From Tetracentron sinense (Eukaryota > Streptophyta > Magnoliopsida > Trochodendrales > Trochodendraceae): 64,000 bases of DNA. Shown here one piece after another: positions 2,120 to 45,600 of the stretch (positions are counted from its first letter, which is position 1; every line of letters begins with the position of its first letter). A program made the translations under genes and the position numbers. The stretch is from positions 54,868,627 through 54,932,626 of the forward strand of contig CM026554.1 in assembly GCA_015143295.1 (NCBI GenBank), given 5' to 3'. The notes under the pieces were generated by a model that was given only the letters and a program-made list of their open reading frames with translations, was not told the origin of the DNA and searched no databases.

Positions 2120-3486
2120 TAAATAAAATTCTTATAGTTATATTACTTAAATCTCCTCCTGTGGTAGCTGGCGGGGACACCGCCAGCACCATCAAATGAA
2201 GTGTCAAATACCCCTTGTTGCGGTATAGAGTTTTGGGGCAAATGTAGAACTTTGGGGCGTATGCATATGGGGTTAAGTGTCATTAATTTGGTGGTGCCAA
2301 CGGTCTTACCGCCATCTACTATTGGAGAATATCCCAACTCTAATTATACGCACATGAATCTTTTTAAAAAGTGATAACTATTGTATTATAGCTCGTCCTA
2401 CCATGGGTAAAACAGGCTTAGAAGCCAAACCCGACTCTCACTTGCCCAAATCCCGTGAAAGAGAAGTCGGGTTGAAGTTGTCGGGTCAGAATCTTATGAC
2501 AAAATCTTGTCAGTGATTGTCTCCAAGTCGGGGTATTTTCGTCATACAAATGGAGGGTATTTAGGTCCTATAAATTTAGTGCCCTGAGATTATTGCGGAA
2601 TCTAGGGCATTTTCGCAATTATGAGAATAACCTGTTTTAATCGGCAGCGGATGTCCCCATGCAGGACTAACGGAGTCGGCAATTTCTAATCTGTCCCGAT
2701 TAATTTAACCACAGGCATAATACTCTCCACGTGGCGGTGTTTTTCACCGCAGGTTTTACCAGACTGGCTTTATACCAGATCCGTGATTTACGGGAACGTC
2801 CGTGGTTTTTCCCCAATGGGAGAAAATATCTAATACTTCCTCATCAATGCATGTACACCGCGAAGTTGTAAACGTGCCACATGTGATAAAGTTAACACAA
2901 TAGTAAAAAGTGAAAACCGACCCTAGCCATTCATTAATCACTAATCGTAGTAATTTAAATATTTAATAAACGAGGAGTGCTAGACGAACTCGCCCCAAAA
3001 CAGACTCGCCCATTTTTTTGAATAAGAGACAGAGAACTTGTCTAGGTGCTAATCTTTTGGGGGCTAGAATTTGAGGGGTTAATCCGCTTGGGTAATAAGC
3101 TAGCACGCCTCTTGATTTGAATTAACGCATTTTAAACTTTAGTCTTTTCACGATAAATTAGTCAAATGAGGACGGCTCAATTATGCCATGTGGCAAATGA
3201 TTCATCATCATTTGTCATCGATTATCTTTCAAATTGACGTCTCACTGAGTTTTCAGTTGACACGTATACATTTTATCTTCTCATTTTAAAAACGTTAAGA
3301 GGGAAGGAATGGTAACTAATAATATTTTGACAGCCAAAAAAAAGATGATCCTATGCGCACACCTATATTATATGGCTGCTAATCAACTGAATTTTTCCTG
3401 CATTTTCCTCTTAACTCGCTGGTCAAAGACTCACATTACTCCCTCAACTGTCGTTCTTGCCTAAAGACTTAAACGATAATGTACAA
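2120..3486. other. Intergenic, no gene recognised
   Basis: Mixed-composition DNA with locally GC-richer stretches (2150-2340, 2400-2530 and 2640-2760) that look like old element fragments, but no termini or target duplications could be defined. The short open frames here have no recognisable domains. Confidence 0.5.
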
Positions 3487-4090
3487 ATTAGGGATGGTTA
3501 ACTAACCACAGTGTTAGTGAATTATTCAAGTTTGGCTCGTTGAAAACTCGAGCTTATTCGTTTATTTAGAAAAACAAATCAAGCTTGAACATGATTATCG
3601 AGCTCGTTTAGTTAACGAGTTAAGTTTGAACACACCCATACTCAGACAGTTAAAAGTTCGCCTTGATTATATATACATATTAACCTATTAAATTATGTAA
3701 AATATACTTATTTCACTTTATTATTAAAATAAAGTTTATGTATTATACACTAGTAAAGATTAATGATATATAATGTATTTTTATATAATAAGAATATCAT
3801 TTATATAATCATAATCTTATACTAAAATTTTAGTTAACACCACAATTTCTTTACCACTTAGGATAATAAAGTGATTTTTTTACCTAATATAAATAGCTAT
3901 ATCCAATAAGTCAAGTTGCTCAACTACTCGAGCTTAGCTCGAGTTCGGCTATTAAAGCTCGAGCTCATTTATTTAATAAACGAGTTAAGCTTGAACATGA
4001 TTTTTGAGCTTATTTAATAATCAAGCAAGCTTGAATACACCACTATTCGGCTCAGCTCAGCTCGGCTCGGCTCAATATCACCCCTAGTGG
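3487..4090. repeat. CTCGAGCTC-rich dispersed repeat, hAT/MITE-like
   Basis: The block opens near AGGGATGG and ends GCTCGGCTCAATATCACCCCTAG. Inside are repeated variants of gctcgagctcg, gttaacgagttaag and aagcttgaacatgat in both orientations. Blocks of this kind with CACCCCTA ends are common as non-autonomous hAT-like elements in plants. No convincing target duplication was found. Confidence 0.45.
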
Positions 4091-20420: not shown

Positions 20421-22264
20421 GAAGGCGTGTGGGGAAGGATAAAAGTGTGCAACAATGGATGCAACTAATGCCAGGTTTTCTAATGGTTGATGCTGTTTTG
20501 ATAGCTGTACTAAATTGAGTCATTGTTGTAATGTTCCATCTGCTACATTTTGACAACAGTGACAGTTAAACGCATTCCCCCCCGGATGGGGTGTGTTTGG
20601 TTTCAAAGACATTTGTCAACAAGGACGTGGGTCTGGGTTAAGAATGATGGGGAAAATGTTTTGTCTTGCATCACAAACAGTGAATGAGCTTCCAAATTTG
20701 CAGTTGGGTGGAAGTTAAAAACACCAACCATCAATACCTTGGCCAAATCTTCTCTCCTCATTTCCTGTGCTGACAAGTGGCACAAAATGATGCATCACAG
20801 ACTCTGTTCTGTCATTCTAGTCGATCAAAAGTCAGACATCCATCTAGAGAGGTCAAACTCCTACAAGTCCGATGTACTGGCCTCTTTTTCCCTAGCCCGT
20901 CACATACAGACTTGTATCATCATTCTAGTCTTTTATCAAGAGTCATATTTCTGGTTTCTGGTTGAAGCGTGTGTTATCAAATTTTTCTCACATCCATGCA
21001 TTTATTTTACATATAGATATTTCATTCATTTTTTGGTGAGTACCGCTATTTGTGCTGCACCCCAAGTGCGGAGTGCACTCCAATCCCAGACTGCAGGTAT
21101 TTGCTGCCCCAATTGTACCCTATCCTACCTAATTAGGGCACCAAAAACTGCTGTCGAAATAACTATACTGTTTGTTTTAGTATCAGGGTCTCGGAATACA
21201 CCTTGGGCTTGCCCCAGTGGTAGTGTATCTCCCCCTTTGGGGTAGGTTCTGGTTTCAATCCCATGCTAGGCATTTAGAGTAGATATTAACTCAGCTAACC
21301 CAAACAAATGAGATAACTACCCCCAACAAAATGTGAGTACCAGAGTTCAAGATACTAAACCCAAAGAAATGAGATTACCCAAATAAAAATAAAAATCAGG
21401 GTCCCAGAATGCCATTTATTCAAAGGTATGCCTGGGCCTTAAGATCTGGCCAATGGGCAAAGGTTGCTAGCTGAAGGCTATAGCCCATGTCAAAGCGAGC
21501 ATGCTCAAGTGCCCATCGTTCCTGAGATACATGAACCTGCAACAGAGAAACATAGCCCACAGATGAGCAATTCACGGACAATTAATCGTGACCTTTGTTA
21601 TTTTTGTATTATTAAATTTTTTTTTTTCGCAAAAAGGAACCCCAAGCCCACCCTTGTAGACCGGGTCAACTTCTTACCCATGCAAAAACCCTACAACCCA
21701 CATAAACCAATAAGCCCAAGGCCTTTGAGAACCATGGAACCTTGACTTCATTCCTGATCTTGGATGAGGGAGCAAACAATTGATCTTCGTTAGACCAAGA
21801 GCTTACAACTCATATGAACCAACAAGCTCAAGGCCTATGAAAATAAAATGCCAATGGAATGAGAAAAGTCGAACTCAGGACCTATGTTTTCTAGAAGGTA
21901 ATCCCTTGATAACTGAGCTACCCCTTTGAGGTTAATTATTTTTGTTAACGTTAACGGTAAAAAAAACATGTGAGGACACGTACGAATGACGATGAAGTCC
22001 CTGGAGGGCACGTGCGAGGGACTGTCCCATGTAAAAGGATAAGTAAGATATTTCCGATCCATACAAAAATCCTGGACAATTTCTCCATTTCCCGCTTCAA
22101 GCTCTCAGTCTCTTCCCTGGTATTCTAGGTCATCAAAAACCCTCCAAACCAAAGAGATTTTGGAATTTTCTAGGGTTTTAGAGATTTTGGTTTTTTGTTC
22201 CTCAGGGTTTCCTCCGTTACTTACGTGATTCTTATCATCTGTGAGGAGCTGATATCATAGAGAA
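20421..22264. other. CPI1 3' UTR, intergenic DNA and RNJ promoter
   Basis: The 3' UTR of CPI1 starts at 20421. From about 22080 the CT-rich sequence before the RNJ ATG looks like its 5' UTR. Between them lie a SINE (21198-21394) and unassigned DNA. The 168-codon open frame at 20739-21245 spans 3'-flanking DNA and the SINE head and is not a credible gene. Confidence 0.5.
21198..21394 (+). mobile_element. tRNA-derived SINE with target duplication
   Basis: The head has an A-box-like GGCTTGCCCCAGTGGTAGTG and a B-box-like GGTTTCAATCCC. The tail is A-rich (aaataaaaataaaa). Flanks repeat ATCAGGGTCTCGGAAT (21182-21197) and ATCAGGGTCCCAGAAT (21395-21410), a 16-bp duplication with two mismatches. The head matches that of the SINE at 39284-39442; the body differs. 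Confidence 0.75.
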
Positions 22265-38123: not shown

Positions 38124-38305
38124 GAGCAATAGTTCGGTCCCTGGGCGATGAACTCCGATTAACTTTTTTCCTTCTAAAAACCAAGGGTAGATGAGTAAAT
38201 ATAGAGGTGAGTGAATCTTAACCATAAAAGGAGTTAAAGGACACACTGCAAATTAGGGGGCCAAGGCACCTCCTTTAGCTGCTCGTTGGAGGAGGTGATT
38301 ATTTT
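38124..38305. mobile_element. MITE, GAGCAATAG/GTGATTATTTT type, no cargo
   Basis: Starts GAGCAATAGTTCGGTCCC and ends GGAGGTGATTATTTT, the same ends as the larger element at 38350-39681. The interior has the shared core (aaaaccaagggtagatgag, then gtgaatcttaaccat and gagttaaagg). Flanks share CCTCAA. It sits only about 45 bp left of the larger element. Confidence 0.6.
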
Positions 38306-38446
38306 CCTCAACCAAAAAAGAAAAAAAAATAGCTTTGCTATTTCTTATATGAGCAATAGTCCCCTCGTCGGCCGAGGAGGGGACTATTCCTCCTCGCTCT
38401 CAAATAGCCAACTTTTTAACTCCCATTAACTCGGGTTAGTTATTTT

Positions 38447-38786
38447 TGTTGAGATTTGAACCACTCGTTTAATCTCTAAACCCTTCGGATCTTGAGAGAC
38501 TATGAATCACAAAAATCACACAACAAATAGAAAAATTGCAGAGAAGAAAATAGAGACAAAACACAAGGATATACGAGGTTCGGCAACGTGCCTACGTTCT
38601 CGGGAGCCACACCAATTCACTATATTGAAGATACAGAATACACAGAGTTTTCTCTCTTAGAAAAATTACGGTCACTTCTCATAATTCGTTAACCTAAAAA
38701 ATACGCATACATTTATATGTTTAGGGTTAAACTGGAAAACCAAAAGTACCCCTACAGAAATGCAAAGGTTGTCTACATTCCCAACA
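38447..38786. mobile_element. Solo LTR, copia-like, with 5-bp target duplication
   Basis: A 340-bp sequence starts TGTTGAGATTTG and ends TTCCCAACA, flanked on both sides by ATTTT (38442-38446 and 38787-38791). The internal motif cgaggttcggcaacgtgcct followed by a conserved ctcgggagcc is typical of plant copia LTRs. No internal region or second LTR is present, so it is a solo LTR. Confidence 0.8.
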
Positions 38787-38924
38787 ATTTTTAACCCTTT
38801 AGTTAATTTTTGGGTTGAGCTATGCGCACCCCTATTTTTTTATGATCACAACCCATACTTAAAATAATATTAGAATATGAAGGAAAAGGACAATAATGAC
38901 CCCATTATTCTTCATTTGCAGAAT

Positions 38925-39232
38925 TGCTGGAAGGTTTCAAAAGTTCTGCAACCTCATAGGTTCCACTGGATATTGGACGGTCGCAACAAATTTTCAAAGA
39001 TTGATTTCAACAAGTTCTCCAGTGCATTTGCGTTGGAGATCAGTTAATCCGAGTTGCTGACAAGTGTTGATCTAAGTCAGAACGAGCTTTCAGGTTAGAT
39101 TCCAACAAAGATCACAACTATGCAGATCTTGAACTACTTGAATCTACCAACAAATCATCTTTTTGGGAGCATTTCATCCTCAATTCCTATTATGTAGAGC
39201 TTGACTTGTGTTGATTTTTCATACAACCACAT
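38925..39232 (+). pseudogene. Decayed fragment of a BAM/CLV1-type LRR receptor kinase gene
   Basis: Read in frame with indels and stops, the plus strand gives FSKIDFNKFSSAFALEIS, stop, then LLTSVDLSQNELSG, stop, then IPTKITTMQILNYLNL, PTNHLFGSISSSIPIM, stop, and SLTCVDFSYNHIS. This follows the last leucine-rich repeats of the CLAVATA1/BAM class XI receptor kinases, which perceive CLE peptides at the cell surface. There is no kinase domain and at least three in-frame stops, so it is non-functional. It lies inside the element at 38350-39681, suggesting capture by that transposon. Confidence 0.7.
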
Positions 39233-39283
39233 CTCGATCTGCTTTGGTTTTCTTAAGTTTTCAAAGAAGAAGAAGAGGATACT

Positions 39284-39442
39284 AACACCATGGGTTTGTC
39301 CCAGTGGTAGTGTATCTCCCTTGGGGGAGTCCTTGGTGTGGCTGTTGACGCCCACCAATGAATGAGTACGCACCCTGCTGACCGATTAACCCCAACATAG
39401 TTACTTAAGAAATTAGGCCAACCAAAAAAAAAAAGAAAAAAA
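39284..39442 (+). mobile_element. SINE with perfect target duplication
   Basis: A 159-bp element with A-box-like GGTTTGTCCCAGTGGTAGTG near its start and an A-rich tail (ccaaccaaaaaaaaaaag). It is flanked by AAGAGGATACT on both sides (39273-39283 and 39443-39453). The head is shared with the SINE at 21198-21394. The perfect 11-bp duplication suggests recent insertion. Confidence 0.85.
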
Positions 39443-39699
39443 AAGAGGATACTCTTGTCTTTCTATTTTATTTTGGGCGTTTTCTTAGAATTGGGGTGCG
39501 GGTAATACCATCCTAATTTTTTTTAATTTTATTTTTCTAAAAACCAAGTGTAGATTGGTGAACCCTATGAATGGATGAATCTTAACCACAGTTAAATGGG
39601 GTTAGAAGGGGACACATGGCAAGAAAATTGGAGCCAAGACGCCCCTCCTCGCATCACCGACCGAGGAGGTGATTATTTTACTTCTTATAGACCCTGTTT

Positions 39700-40565
39700 A
39701 CGGTCTACAAAAATAAAACCCGGACACCACAAAAAGGATTTCCGCACCTTAACATTTCTTGCTTCTCAAGCTTTTGCCTTACTTTATTTTCTTGGTTCTT
39801 CTCCTAAAATTTCGTAGCAGTTCTCTGATTTCATCCATTCTTCTTCTACTGTGATTTGAAGGTACGGTTAGGGTTTCTCTTCTTCGATTTCAGCTGTTTG
39901 GAATTTATTAGTTAATATTGTTGGCGACCTCTCTAATTTCGTAATACAGAAGAACATAGATGTAATAAAATTTATTAATTTCTAGGTTATACGCAATCTT
40001 TGTGATTTGAATCTTTTAATTTTAGACAAACATTTTGAATCGGAAACTCGCTATTCTAGGGTTTTTTCTTTGAATGCTGTAGAACTAGGTCAGATTCAAT
40101 TAACACGCTCGTAGATATAATTCTTCAATTGACACCGTAGTAGAAAATGTTAAGGTTTCTGTTCAGTGTTTATCTTTCATTTGAGAATATTCTCTTGCCT
40201 TTTATTGTTTGCTCTTTGTCTCGATTTATATATAAACGAAGAACTAATGTAGAATCACAATGAAAAAGGATATTGAGGATTCAATGCGTCTAAAGTTAAT
40301 CCTTTTCGCCTTTTTCAGTGGATGCTCAAACTGTGCCTATGTTAAGAATACCTTAAAGTACGAAGTGGAAATTGTCATATAAAAAGTGGATAATTTTAAT
40401 TGCTGATTTTCTTAAACAAACTGGAGTGTAGAAGCTTTTCCTCAGAAAATTTAAGAAACACGGAGTTTGTTGGAAAACTCCTTTGTGAAATAATACATGA
40501 AATTTAATGAGTTTATAGTCACTAATTTTTAGAGATGAATTTTCTTTTGATATAGGTGTGTAAGC
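39700..40565 (+). promoter_or_regulatory. 5' UTR with leader intron of the proteasome beta-5 gene
   Basis: A CT-rich leader (about 39790-39861) ends in GAAG|GTACGG. A probable leader intron, 39862-40555, ends TTGATATAG. The 10-nt exon start GTGTGTAAGC then leads to the ATG at 40566. Leader introns are common in plant proteasome genes. The transcription start is not fixed. Confidence 0.5.
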
Positions 40566-42604
40566 ATGAAGCTTGATACAAGTGGCCTTGAATCAATTTC
40601 CCCGCTTTTTGGGGCAAACAGCGAGCTATTGGGAGGGTTTTCAACAGCCCCGTCGTTTGAGCTTCCTAGTAGTACTGATGTGAGATCTGATGCACCTGTT
40701 TTGCAATGTAAAATTTCCCAATTCTGTTAAGAGAAAATTAGGGACTGAACATTTTTCTTGTTTCAGTTTGATGGCTTCCAGAAAGAAGCAATACAAATGG
40801 TGAAGCCAGCAAAAGGAACAACGACGCTCGCTTTCATCTTTAAGGAAGGAGTCATGGTTGCTGCTGATTCTCGAGCTAGCATGGGAGGATATATCTGTAT
40901 GTTTTTATTTTTCCTTTTCTTATTTTACCGTGGAACATATATATTTGTGCATATTGGATTAGTTTATGTATGGTATGTTCATTGGGCATGATTTTATGAC
41001 TTTTATCCTTCGGTGCACATCATGTTTTCAGGTTTTCCTCGTACAGTTTAGCCTCATTTAGCAAACAATGCAGTATGTAGTTCAGTATAAAAAAAATAAG
41101 TCACACGGTATGTTGTTATTGTGCAAGAGTTACCATATTGATATAATGCAGAAAAGATTACATATTGAAATTAAATATAGTGCCTAGTATGCTTTGTTCA
41201 GAAGTCCGTGATACGGTATATGGGGACCTTATTTCATCTATTGGCATATGCTTCTCTTAAATTTGGTATTTAATGTAATGTTTTGGGCCATGGGGTATGC
41301 TGTAGATTTGCATTCAGCTGGTCTATATGGGTTATTGGAGGAAGGGTTTTGGAATTGGGTTGAGGATTAAAATAACGGTTTCGGTGTGTGTAATGGACCC
41401 TGCTGAAACCATTACGTAACGCTGAAACTATTACGAATATGAAGCTTTTTTTTTCTTCGATCACTTTAGTATAAACAACATTATTAATGTTATAATTATT
41501 TCGTGTTATTTTTTCGTATAAATGACCGTTACTATTAGTTTTTTAGGTCATTTTTTAGAATAAACAACACTAGTAATGCTCAAGAGATGATTTGATCCGT
41601 CCTTTGTGGGGCCATCTCGTGAATGATTCGGAAAGAGATGAACAAGAGAGTGCTATTGTCTCATGTTTGCTTGTGTATTAGACACCTAATCTTAGAATCA
41701 TGCTCTATTCTGCAAGTGGGAGTGGATCTTCTAGTGTGATTATCATCTTTAGGGTTGGTGTACTTGCTAATCCTTGGATCATCTGTTAGGATTTGTACTA
41801 TTATCAATTTATTCCTTTCCTTTTCGTGTTTACGCGCATGTAAACTCCTTGTAGTCACTCTTAAATTTTGCTGTGCTTTTCGTATCCTAAATATAATTTG
41901 TTGATTACCGATCTAAAGAAGAAGACAAAACACCAATAATGCCAAATTCTAACTGAATCGGATGTTACATAACGTTTGTAACAGCCGTTTTCTTGCCTTT
42001 TTAGGGTTTTGTAGGCATCAGTCATTGTAACGGCTCGAACCCTACTAAAACCTATGTAACCGATTTTTATTGCCATGGTGCTGGTATATGATTTGCATTT
42101 CTTAAATTATAAAGTAACATGTACACGTGTGTATACATTCTAGATGAGCAATAATAATTTCACAAGTTATGCACAAATTGTAGATGTGGTATTTAGAAGG
42201 ATGTATTTTTTGCCTTTGTAGTTGCAGTAATAGTGCGATTTTAGTGAGCTCTATGACTTCTTATTTTTTGTTATGCCGAAACTTGATAACACTTGGATCT
42301 CCTCGACACATACATGGCATTACACTTTTATGCATGCACACACATTGTGTTGTGATGACCATAGTTCAAAATATCAGTATCAAGGTACATATCGGTAAAT
42401 TCAAAATAGGATACATATCGAGGATACGCAAGGAAACTCTATAAAAAAATTATGAATACGTTGGAAACTCCTGGAAACTTAAGCCCAAACATATTTTAAT
42501 GCAATGATAACATCAAAAAATGGTAGTTTGAGTCGTATAGATACTATTTGAACTATCTATAGAAGTTTTCATTATGCATTAGTTCATAGATTGGCAGATA
42601 CGTT

Positions 42605-42640
<36 letters not shown>

Positions 42641-45600
42641 GAATTCATATGTTCATGTTATATTGAGAGACAAACTAAAGCATGATTCTTCAATAAAACA
42701 TTCATTTGTAGGTAATGAAATACATAAAGAGATGTCTTTATATAAACTAAAGCCCAACTACTTGGATTTGACTGGGAGGAACCTCCCGTATCAAACTAAC
42801 TTTCATTAAAAGTTATAGAAGTCTGCTTCTTCCTCCTTCTAGAGATGAGATGAACTCCAGCAAGTTGAAAATCAAAGAAACTTGCTTTGTCCGATATCAA
42901 GTTGAAAATCAGGATCCTCTTCATATGAGAGGGAGTGTATGCGCTGTCCCCTCGGAGCCATACAATTTCTTTTGTGTCTTTTCTTGCATATTTGTCAAAT
43001 GTCAATAGATGCTTCATCAACTTTCTGACCTCCTTGGGGACATGTAGACAGTCCTCAACATTCCTTGTCATGTAAGCTAAGTAATAACAATTCGCGTTTA
43101 TTTTGCATTTAATTCTACCAATCAAAAATAATAATAAATCGCGTTTAATTCGGGATCTTGTGATTTTTGAAAAAGCCCAAACTTTTTCAAAAAGTCACTA
43201 GTACTTTGTGAATTAATCGTTTGACAAAAAATTCGTGAATCATTCGAGACTTCGTGAAAAAATTGGAGAACTTTGCTACTATTACTACGACCACTTAAGC
43301 ATTTCACTACACTATGGCCATCCCTAATCTCATTAGTTACTTTGTGAAGAAAACTTGGCAATTCAGTACACAGTTTTGGGTTTGCTCTAGGTTATATGCA
43401 TTGGATTCATTCTTTGATAAGTAACAATAATTTCATCGACACTAGGTTGTCAACAAAATGAGCTGGCTTGGCAAAGCTTGCTTGCATTGAGTTTAGACCG
43501 AATCTCAAGCTAGGCTCACAAAATAATTGAGCTTTAGTTGAGCTTGGGGTTGCTCGACTCGAATTGTCTCACAGTATAATTTTTATGTTGTTCTCATTCA
43601 CTTTTAATATATACATGTATTAAATGATGTATATACATATATAATGGCGTGGCCTTAGCTTAGTTTGTGTGTCTAGCATAGAGATATAACCCCTATTGGC
43701 AAAAAGAAAACATAAGGCAGGTGATTAATGCCATTGGAAGGTAAGAAAAGGGAGATGAAATGATGGAATGGGATCTGGAAGAAACGTAATAAAAAGCTTG
43801 CATTCTAGATAATAGGTAATCCAATGCTTGTGGAGATTGATATGTATGAACAAGGCACTTTTGGGCAATGGATTTGCCGTTTCAGCATAGGATAGTGCTT
43901 TATGGAGGAGGATTGTCGGAGCCAAGTTCGTGACTTCCATATTTAATTGGGACTCTTTACCTTATCTCTTCTTCATATGGGTTTGGGGTATGGAAAGGGA
44001 TTATAAAGGTTTGTGACAAATTTTTGGAATAGGCCAGTTTTGCTGTTGGTGAGGGAAACAGGGTCAGTTTTTGGCGGATGAGTGGAGCGGGGTTGGCTGG
44101 ATATGTGAAATATGCCCCAGTTTATTCAGGCTTGCTCTAGCGAAAAAATGTCTCGATTAGAGACTTGTTTGAAAGGAGGAACAATGAGCTTGTATACTGC
44201 CCAATTTTCTTTAAAAATCTAGGGATAAGGAGATCGAAGAATGCTTGAGCTTGTTTGAGATGCTCAACAGAGCGTAGACAAAGTGGATCGCCGTCTTTGG
44301 ATGCATAACCTGAAAGGAATTTTCACGGTAAGAGACTTCTACAACTACCTTCTATTGAGCGACTTGGTTAGGTTGGAAGATGTGGAAATCCTACTTCTCA
44401 CCAAAGTTCCAAGCTTTTGCATTGTTGGTTGCTTCGAACAATATATTGACAATAGATTAACTAGGAGCAGATGCAATATGTGGTATATGGCTTAGGAATA
44501 CGTTCATCACTTGCTTCTCCATTCCCCGGTGGCTTGGATTGCATGGAGTTTCTTTTTTATCCCTCTTTCGGTTCTCATCCGTGACTTATAAGGAGTTTGA
44601 AGAAGCGATTCTCAATTGGCCAAAAGGAGTCTTCAACTGCAAGGGAAACATCCTTTGGGAAATGTTGTCTTATGTAGTCATTTGAGGCTTATGGTGTGAG
44701 AGGAATAGAAGGATTTTTGACGGGTTAAACCCCTCAATCCCCAAGCCATGTGCTTCAATTGGGTAGGACCTTTGAAACTAGGCGGCTGTCCTTAAGGGAG
44801 TTTGGGGATGTTACTGCAAAAAAAAAAAATATATATATAGGAGAATGATTCTTTCCACGTGCGCGTTCCGCGGAACGCTCACGCGGTCCTTGCTTGACAC
44901 AACTAATTTTAACACCCATTAATTGTGGTTAAGATTCATCATCTATAGGGTTCCTCCATCTACCTTTAGTTTGTAGATTTTTTTTTAAATATTAACCTTG
45001 GGTTGACTGGCCTAAACCACAATTAACGCGTGCACCTACACGTTGCCACATGTCCCTTTTAACACCCACTAACTGTGGTTAAGATTTACTCATCCCTAGG
45101 GTTCATCCATCTACCCTTGGTTTTTATTTTAAAAAATTGAAAAAAATATTAAACTTGGGTTGAGTAACCTAAACCACAGTTAATGTGCGTGCCTAGAAGT
45201 TGCCACATGTCCCTTTTAACAACCACTAACTGTGGTTAAGATTCATTCACCCATAGGGTTCATTGATCTATCCTTGGTTTTTAGGTAATAAAATAAAAAT
45301 ATTAACTTTGGGTTAACTAACCTAAACCATAGTTAACGCACGCCTATAAATTGCCATGTGTCCCTTTTAATGCCCACTAACTGTGGTTAAGATTCACTCA
45401 CCCCTAGGGTTCATCCATCTAGAAAAAAATTAATCCTTAGTTTTTAGAAAAAAATTAACCAAGGTTAAAAGGAACATGCAGCAAGAAGAGGGAGTGTCCG
45501 CGTTCCACTGAGTTGGAACGCGGTCCCGTAAAGAATCAAGCCCCATATATATATATATGGTTTGGATGGAATCATTTAGTTTTTGATGATTCTTGAGTCT

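Follow-up and report, generated by a model that had tools for sequence, protein, structure and literature searches.

The window, a 64,000-nucleotide stretch of the Tetracentron sinense genome lying on C4, contains a stack of four transposable elements upstream of a proteasome subunit gene (elements and their parts are given on the + strand; target duplications are unstranded). The outermost is a MITE comprising a left arm (38351-38446, with a fold-back at 38351-38392), a middle part (38792-38811) and a right arm (39522-39681), both arms being known from genome copies, and its target duplication, read by eye, is TTCTTATA(T/G), 8/9 identical between the left copy (TTCTTATAT, 38342-38350) and the right copy (TTCTTATAG, 39682-39690). 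Between the middle part and the right arm lies element X (38812-39513), a TIR transposon carrying a fragment of a BAM-type receptor kinase gene, with the ends GGGTTGAGCTATGCGCACC and GGTGCGGGTAATACCATCC (TIR GGGTGGWGYTA...GCACC) and an exact 8-bp duplication, TAATTTTT, at 38804-38811 (within the middle part of the MITE) and 39514-39521. Between the left arm and the middle part of the MITE, beside X, is a 340-bp sequence with TG...CA ends (38447-38786) flanked by ATTTT on both sides (38442-38446 and 38787-38791), and 38 further copies of it, 89-93% identical, were present among the best 40 of 7,163 candidates; its ends, duplication and copy number indicate that it is probably a solo LTR. An insertion within X (39284-39442) has an A-rich 3′ end and an 11-bp duplication, AAGAGGATACT, on either side (39273-39283 and 39443-39453), features that suggest an element of the SINE class. 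A 48-bp stretch elsewhere in the window (21198-21245) is 85% like the start of this SINE-like insert at 39284. Downstream of the stack, a Pfam Proteasome match (40767-40895, E 6.3e-06) marks the proteasome subunit gene, presumably that of beta-5 as named in the preliminary description, with a start codon read by eye at 40566, ~880 bp past the stack. The preliminary description had reported the outer ends with their target duplication, a solo LTR and a SINE within the element, and the position next to the proteasome gene, and each of these was recovered here.

Searches of the 1.16 Gb genome showed what the outer element is. Its left arm recurs at an identity of at least 92% in each of the best 40 of 2,219 candidate places and its right arm at an identity of at least 90% in each of the best 40 of 4,490; among the matches listed, the two arms occur together, 18 bp apart, at two places besides the window. 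The intact outer MITEs, C18:37114490-37114766 and C4:30272089-30272365, have captured nothing and hold no receptor sequence, and their duplications, read by eye, are CTTACGACA/TTTACGACA (8/9) and TTAAGTTAT (9/9), respectively. With the LTR and X, together with its SINE-like insert, taken out, the window aligned end to end with both intact MITEs at 85-86% identity (304 columns, flanks counted in). Since the two intact copies align with the joined flanks of the window, the outer element is an ordinary, high-copy MITE of ~277 bp and the landing site of X. A further MITE to its left (38124-38305, + strand), whose ends had been matched to those of the supposed BAM carrier, aligns with the right half of the outer MITE at 71% over 164 bp, and with the outer MITE at 65% over 211 aligned columns when flanks are counted in; it is related to the outer MITE, though diverged from it, and is no kin of X. 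Elsewhere in the window, a tandem array at 44907-45421 (157-bp unit, 3.4 copies) contains parts that resemble the outer-MITE right arm at ~79%.

A scan of the window for the X TIR pattern, allowing up to three mismatches, returned two matches, both of them the ends of X. At least two matches were also seen in 14 of 100 shuffles; the pattern in the window is weak when taken alone, and the weight therefore rests on the genome copies. The nearest of these, L030 (L002; C7:12992701-12993148), from which the pattern was partly drawn, matches X at 89% identity across 451 bp. Both X ends are present in it, with TATATATA directly on both sides, and the outer-MITE arms, the LTR and the SINE-like insert are absent. 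An Rfam search of 38300-39800 gave no credible RNA; its one snoRNA match scored far under the gathering score and was taken as chance.

Genome-wide, the exact 22-bp X ends were found 697 times (347 + 350), and a reversed-pattern control was found 0 times. In 26 flank pairs, an 8-bp duplication matched at 0.81 of positions, against 0.49 when the pairs were shuffled (1000 shuffles; highest shuffled match 0.59), and other lengths (7, 9, 10 and 11 bp) gave 0.43-0.56; the duplication was exact in 13 of the 26, a set that takes in one C14 insertion three times (2/8) and two 6-kb pairs (5/8). Nine short end pairs, one of them at C2:22262640, occurred among the first 100 listed places, and the duplication was exact in 8/8 of the short pairs tested on C1. 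Inverted ends of ~90-111 bp, 69-87% identical, were present in 13 of 17 X copies, and the alignment of the two ends exceeded 30 bp in all but two of the 17, namely L031 (20 bp) and the copy in the window (12 bp). Four X interiors (L037, L039, L040, L046) share a common core without BAM sequence, and three (L102, L103, L104) match neither the core nor BAM. One L037 core frame and two L103 frames had no Pfam match at E 1, and the L037 frame had no PDB match at E 1 either. A scan for hAT domains found no transposase for X (best 150 of 1,709 candidates scored), and by eye no hAT-domain candidate lay between paired X ends in the part of the 697-place listing examined, its first 100 entries. Two 6-kb pairs of X ends were considered as autonomous candidates and rejected, the duplication being only 5/8 in each. 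Between X-type ends 6.2 kb apart, L081 holds a decayed piece of a ubiquitin-conjugating-enzyme gene (646-927; Pfam E 1.7e-11), which was not counted as X cargo because the enclosing end pair is without a matching duplication. With TIRs common to its copies, a duplication of fixed 8-bp length and a piece of a host gene, X is well supported as a Pack-TYPE-like TIR transposon, probably a non-autonomous one.

The decayed run of leucine-rich repeats (LRRs) of BAM/CLV1 type that had been described in the window is present at 38961-39249 (+ strand), where it corresponds to the final LRRs of a receptor kinase of BAM type, and is 79% identical over 295 bp to the BAM-type gene at C6:34757668-34761099. 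Three stop codons interrupt the LRR frame of 38901-39282; five stops were also counted, but in a frame other than the LRR frame. The spot at which X core (..CATAGG) meets BAM sequence (TTCC..) lies at 38951-38965 (+ strand) and is shortened in the sublineage of the window. The match of the window fragment to its nearest sister copy (E 1.5e-166) is far past chance. BAM pieces, consisting of the last LRRs, kinase pieces or the C-terminal tail, were found in 12 X or X-derived insertion loci. In L032 numbering, with the first exon from 1469, the pieces are 2934-3223 in the window, 2934-3223 and 4795-4904 in L030, 2949-3213 and 4795-4894 in L031, 2944-3223 in L033, 2933-3181 in L034 (with L035 and L064), 2933-3181 in L036, 2933-3032 and 3132-3181 in L077, 2923-3007 and 3149-3180 in L078, 3229-3286 and 3539-4008 in L038, 3227-3348 in L074, 3893-3995 in L043, and 3913-3994 in C1big (L041 with L080). 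Both X ends are present at ten of the loci; L074 has the left end alone, and in L033, where neither end can be recognised, the subterminal sequence is X-like. The ten copies that bear BAM sequence between two X ends measure 0.7-2.8 kb, and among them the 8-bp duplication is exact in the window, L030, L038 and L043 and imperfect in L077 (7/8), L031 and L078 (6/8), L036 (5/8), C1big (4/8) and L034 (2/8). On C14, L034, L035 and L064 were counted once because their flanks are common to all three (95.6-99% identical), which makes them one X insertion in a segmental duplication.

The C6 gene has LRR and Pkinase domains (Pfam) and an 878-codon open first exon, and further matches spanning nearly the whole gene lie on C1040, C24 and C2. 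We take the donor-type gene to be a BAM gene and not another LRR kinase; this label rests on sequence motifs, because the PDB matches of the C6 gene are GSO1, BRI1 and others. The copy on C1040 (L048), the fourth of BAM type, is 86% like the C6 gene and has several small gaps within the ~295-bp LRR stretch, possibly as a decaying copy. The LRR pieces in X are nearest BAM_C6 in 8/8 cases; among the kinase pieces, those in L038 and L074 are nearest BAM_C6, C1big is a tie and L043 is nearest BAM_C24; the C-terminal tail matches BAM_C2 best. Constrained trees gave p-AU values of 0.54 for X with BAM_C6, 0.64 for X alone, 0.64 for X with the C24-C2 pair and 0.19 for a split X, so that with all four placements accepted (p-AU 0.19 to 0.64) a single donor paralogue cannot be named; the search for a parent gene proposed in the preliminary description yielded four BAM-type copies and singled out no one parent. 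A capture at about the time the paralogues separated would fit these data.

BAM sequence was also found in elements other than X. At L053 (C13, ~7283176) an LRR piece is closest to BAM_C24 (support 98.9/100) and lies in a MULE-like element (618-2122) with ~180-bp inverted repeats and TAAGATGTT/TAAAATGTT outside them (by eye). At L055 (C10, ~39727404) an LRR piece is closest to BAM_C2 (96.5/99) and lies in a hAT-like element (1200-2205) of 1 kb, whose ends are TAGGGCTGTCAA and which has an exact GTCATACC on both sides (by eye). Two further loci, C4:45166135-45169309 and C16:8629273-8630967, contain scattered BAM kinase pieces and are 91-95% alike over ~4.7 kb; X ends were looked for near both and none was found. 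Among the best 40 of 60 candidates, partial BAM matches start at L032 position 2812 or later. A hotspot of BAM capture is only a possibility, since 40 of the 60 candidates were scored and several of these are probably other receptor kinases. The proposal that the 3′ half of BAM genes is a recurrent target of three TIR families (X and those at C13:7283176 and C10:39727404), each having taken overlapping LRR sequence related to a different BAM paralogue, and that the many copies carried by X may be a source of small RNAs or transcripts acting on BAM genes, is speculative and, in our judgement, rather improbable.

The insertions that make up the stack are evident from the ends, the duplications and the empty-site comparison. 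The 277-bp outer MITE with its 9-bp target duplication was in place first; X, with the BAM piece already aboard, and the solo LTR then entered it, in either order; and the SINE-like element afterwards inserted into X. The nested age sequence given previously is retained here, but X has to be added as an extra layer between the outer MITE and the SINE-like insert. As for the cargo, a BAM gene would have contributed about its 3′ half, beginning in the final LRRs and running beyond the stop codon, which would have been joined to an older X core, possibly by faulty repair of excision gaps or by template switching, as modelled in PMC8277862 and PMC3260210, after which derivatives would have shed different internal parts and multiplied by transposition. 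We consider it highly probable that the locus is a four-element stack in which X carries the BAM piece, with a single main capture followed by internal deletions and transposition as its most likely history.

L078 has its core-to-BAM junction at the same place as L034, L036 and L077, and because two sublineages have this junction in common, the preferred interpretation is one capture with subsequent internal deletion and amplification. The sequence at the junction is deleted in the sublineage formed by the window, L030, L031 and L033, but the core ahead of it is still recognisable; the identity of the junction in this sublineage therefore rests on the core before it. In L030 and L031 an LRR piece is followed by the C-terminal tail, as in the gene, with the kinase part missing between them; being colinear with the gene, these pieces suggest that the copy from which both derive probably included the kinase part as well. 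None of the X copies found retains the captured stretch in full, so that the single capture is pieced together from partial ones, and a tree of element ends did not unite the BAM-bearing copies. That X instead took pieces of different BAM genes several times is unlikely, though it keeps an appreciable share of probability: the pieces differ by sublineage (LRR; LRR plus tail; kinase), the L043 kinase piece is nearest BAM_C24 and the LRR pieces nearest BAM_C6, the kinase piece of L043 and C1big is joined to other sequence, and two other TIR families have also taken up BAM fragments. Against repeated capture stand the junction common to two sublineages and the colinear pieces of L030 and L031, and the second junction, which L038 and L074 have in common, reads as a loss of the end of the core and the start of the BAM piece. 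L038/L074 and L043/C1big could nevertheless represent separate captures, and a single main capture remains the most likely course of events for the family.

Two other origins of the fragment are far less probable. An old pseudogene or segmental duplicate later hit by repeats would account for its decay, with stops and small deletions, and is very hard to reconcile with homology that ends inside the X ends and with the same bounded fragment on other chromosomes. The preliminary description had assigned the LRR run to a gene-carrying form of the outer MITE (38350-39681), a reading that the position of the fragment between the outer ends and the good outer duplication would favour; the run belongs instead to the nested X (38812-39513), enclosed by TIRs with their own 8-bp duplication, and it recurs in X elements such as L030 without outer-MITE ends, which, together with the two intact, cargo-free MITEs, makes capture by the outer MITE family highly improbable. 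The Pack-type capture of a BAM/CLV1-type piece was recognised correctly, and it is the capturing family that changes.

The value of the family lies in its readable capture history, as a single genome shows elements that have the core and no gene piece, a common junction and several deletion sublineages with different parts of the receptor gene. This history makes the models of capture by TIR elements, gap filling and template switching, testable at the sequence level. It also carries a warning, namely that where elements are nested, the wrong transposon may be taken for the one that captured a gene.

Plant MITEs of high copy number and 9-bp target duplication are a known type, and the outer 277-bp element fits it, with nothing unusual about it other than its being a landing site. 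Members of the Mutator-like superfamily have long inverted repeats, and the usual target duplication of MULEs is 9 bp. X has inverted ends of ~90-111 bp in 13/17 copies, but its duplication is 8 bp, not the usual 9 bp of MULEs, and no autonomous partner was identified for it; 8 bp is the duplication length of the hAT superfamily. In PMC3260210, maize Ds-l4 elements of the hAT superfamily are described as having 8-bp duplications, a modal length of ~1 kb and filler DNA that varies between copies, some of which include gene fragments; X differs from Ds2 and Ds-l4 in its ~100-bp imperfect inverted ends (13/17 copies) and other TIRs, and a link of X to a hAT transposase was not found. For animal Pack-TIRs, PMC8277862 proposes gap filling or template switching for the capture and later transposition for the multicopy forms; the host of X is a plant, and the capture mechanism suggested for it here is borrowed from that model. 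No title on BAM gene fragments in transposons was among the literature matches listed. The Pack-TYPE elements and Pack-MULEs of rice, maize and Arabidopsis are, as characterised in PMC8903248, non-autonomous TIR elements with target duplications that hold pieces of host genes and have multiplied, and X is likewise a TIR element with target duplications, a host gene piece and many copies. The nested gene-carrying element thus adds a clear new case to a process already known and does not reveal a new one.
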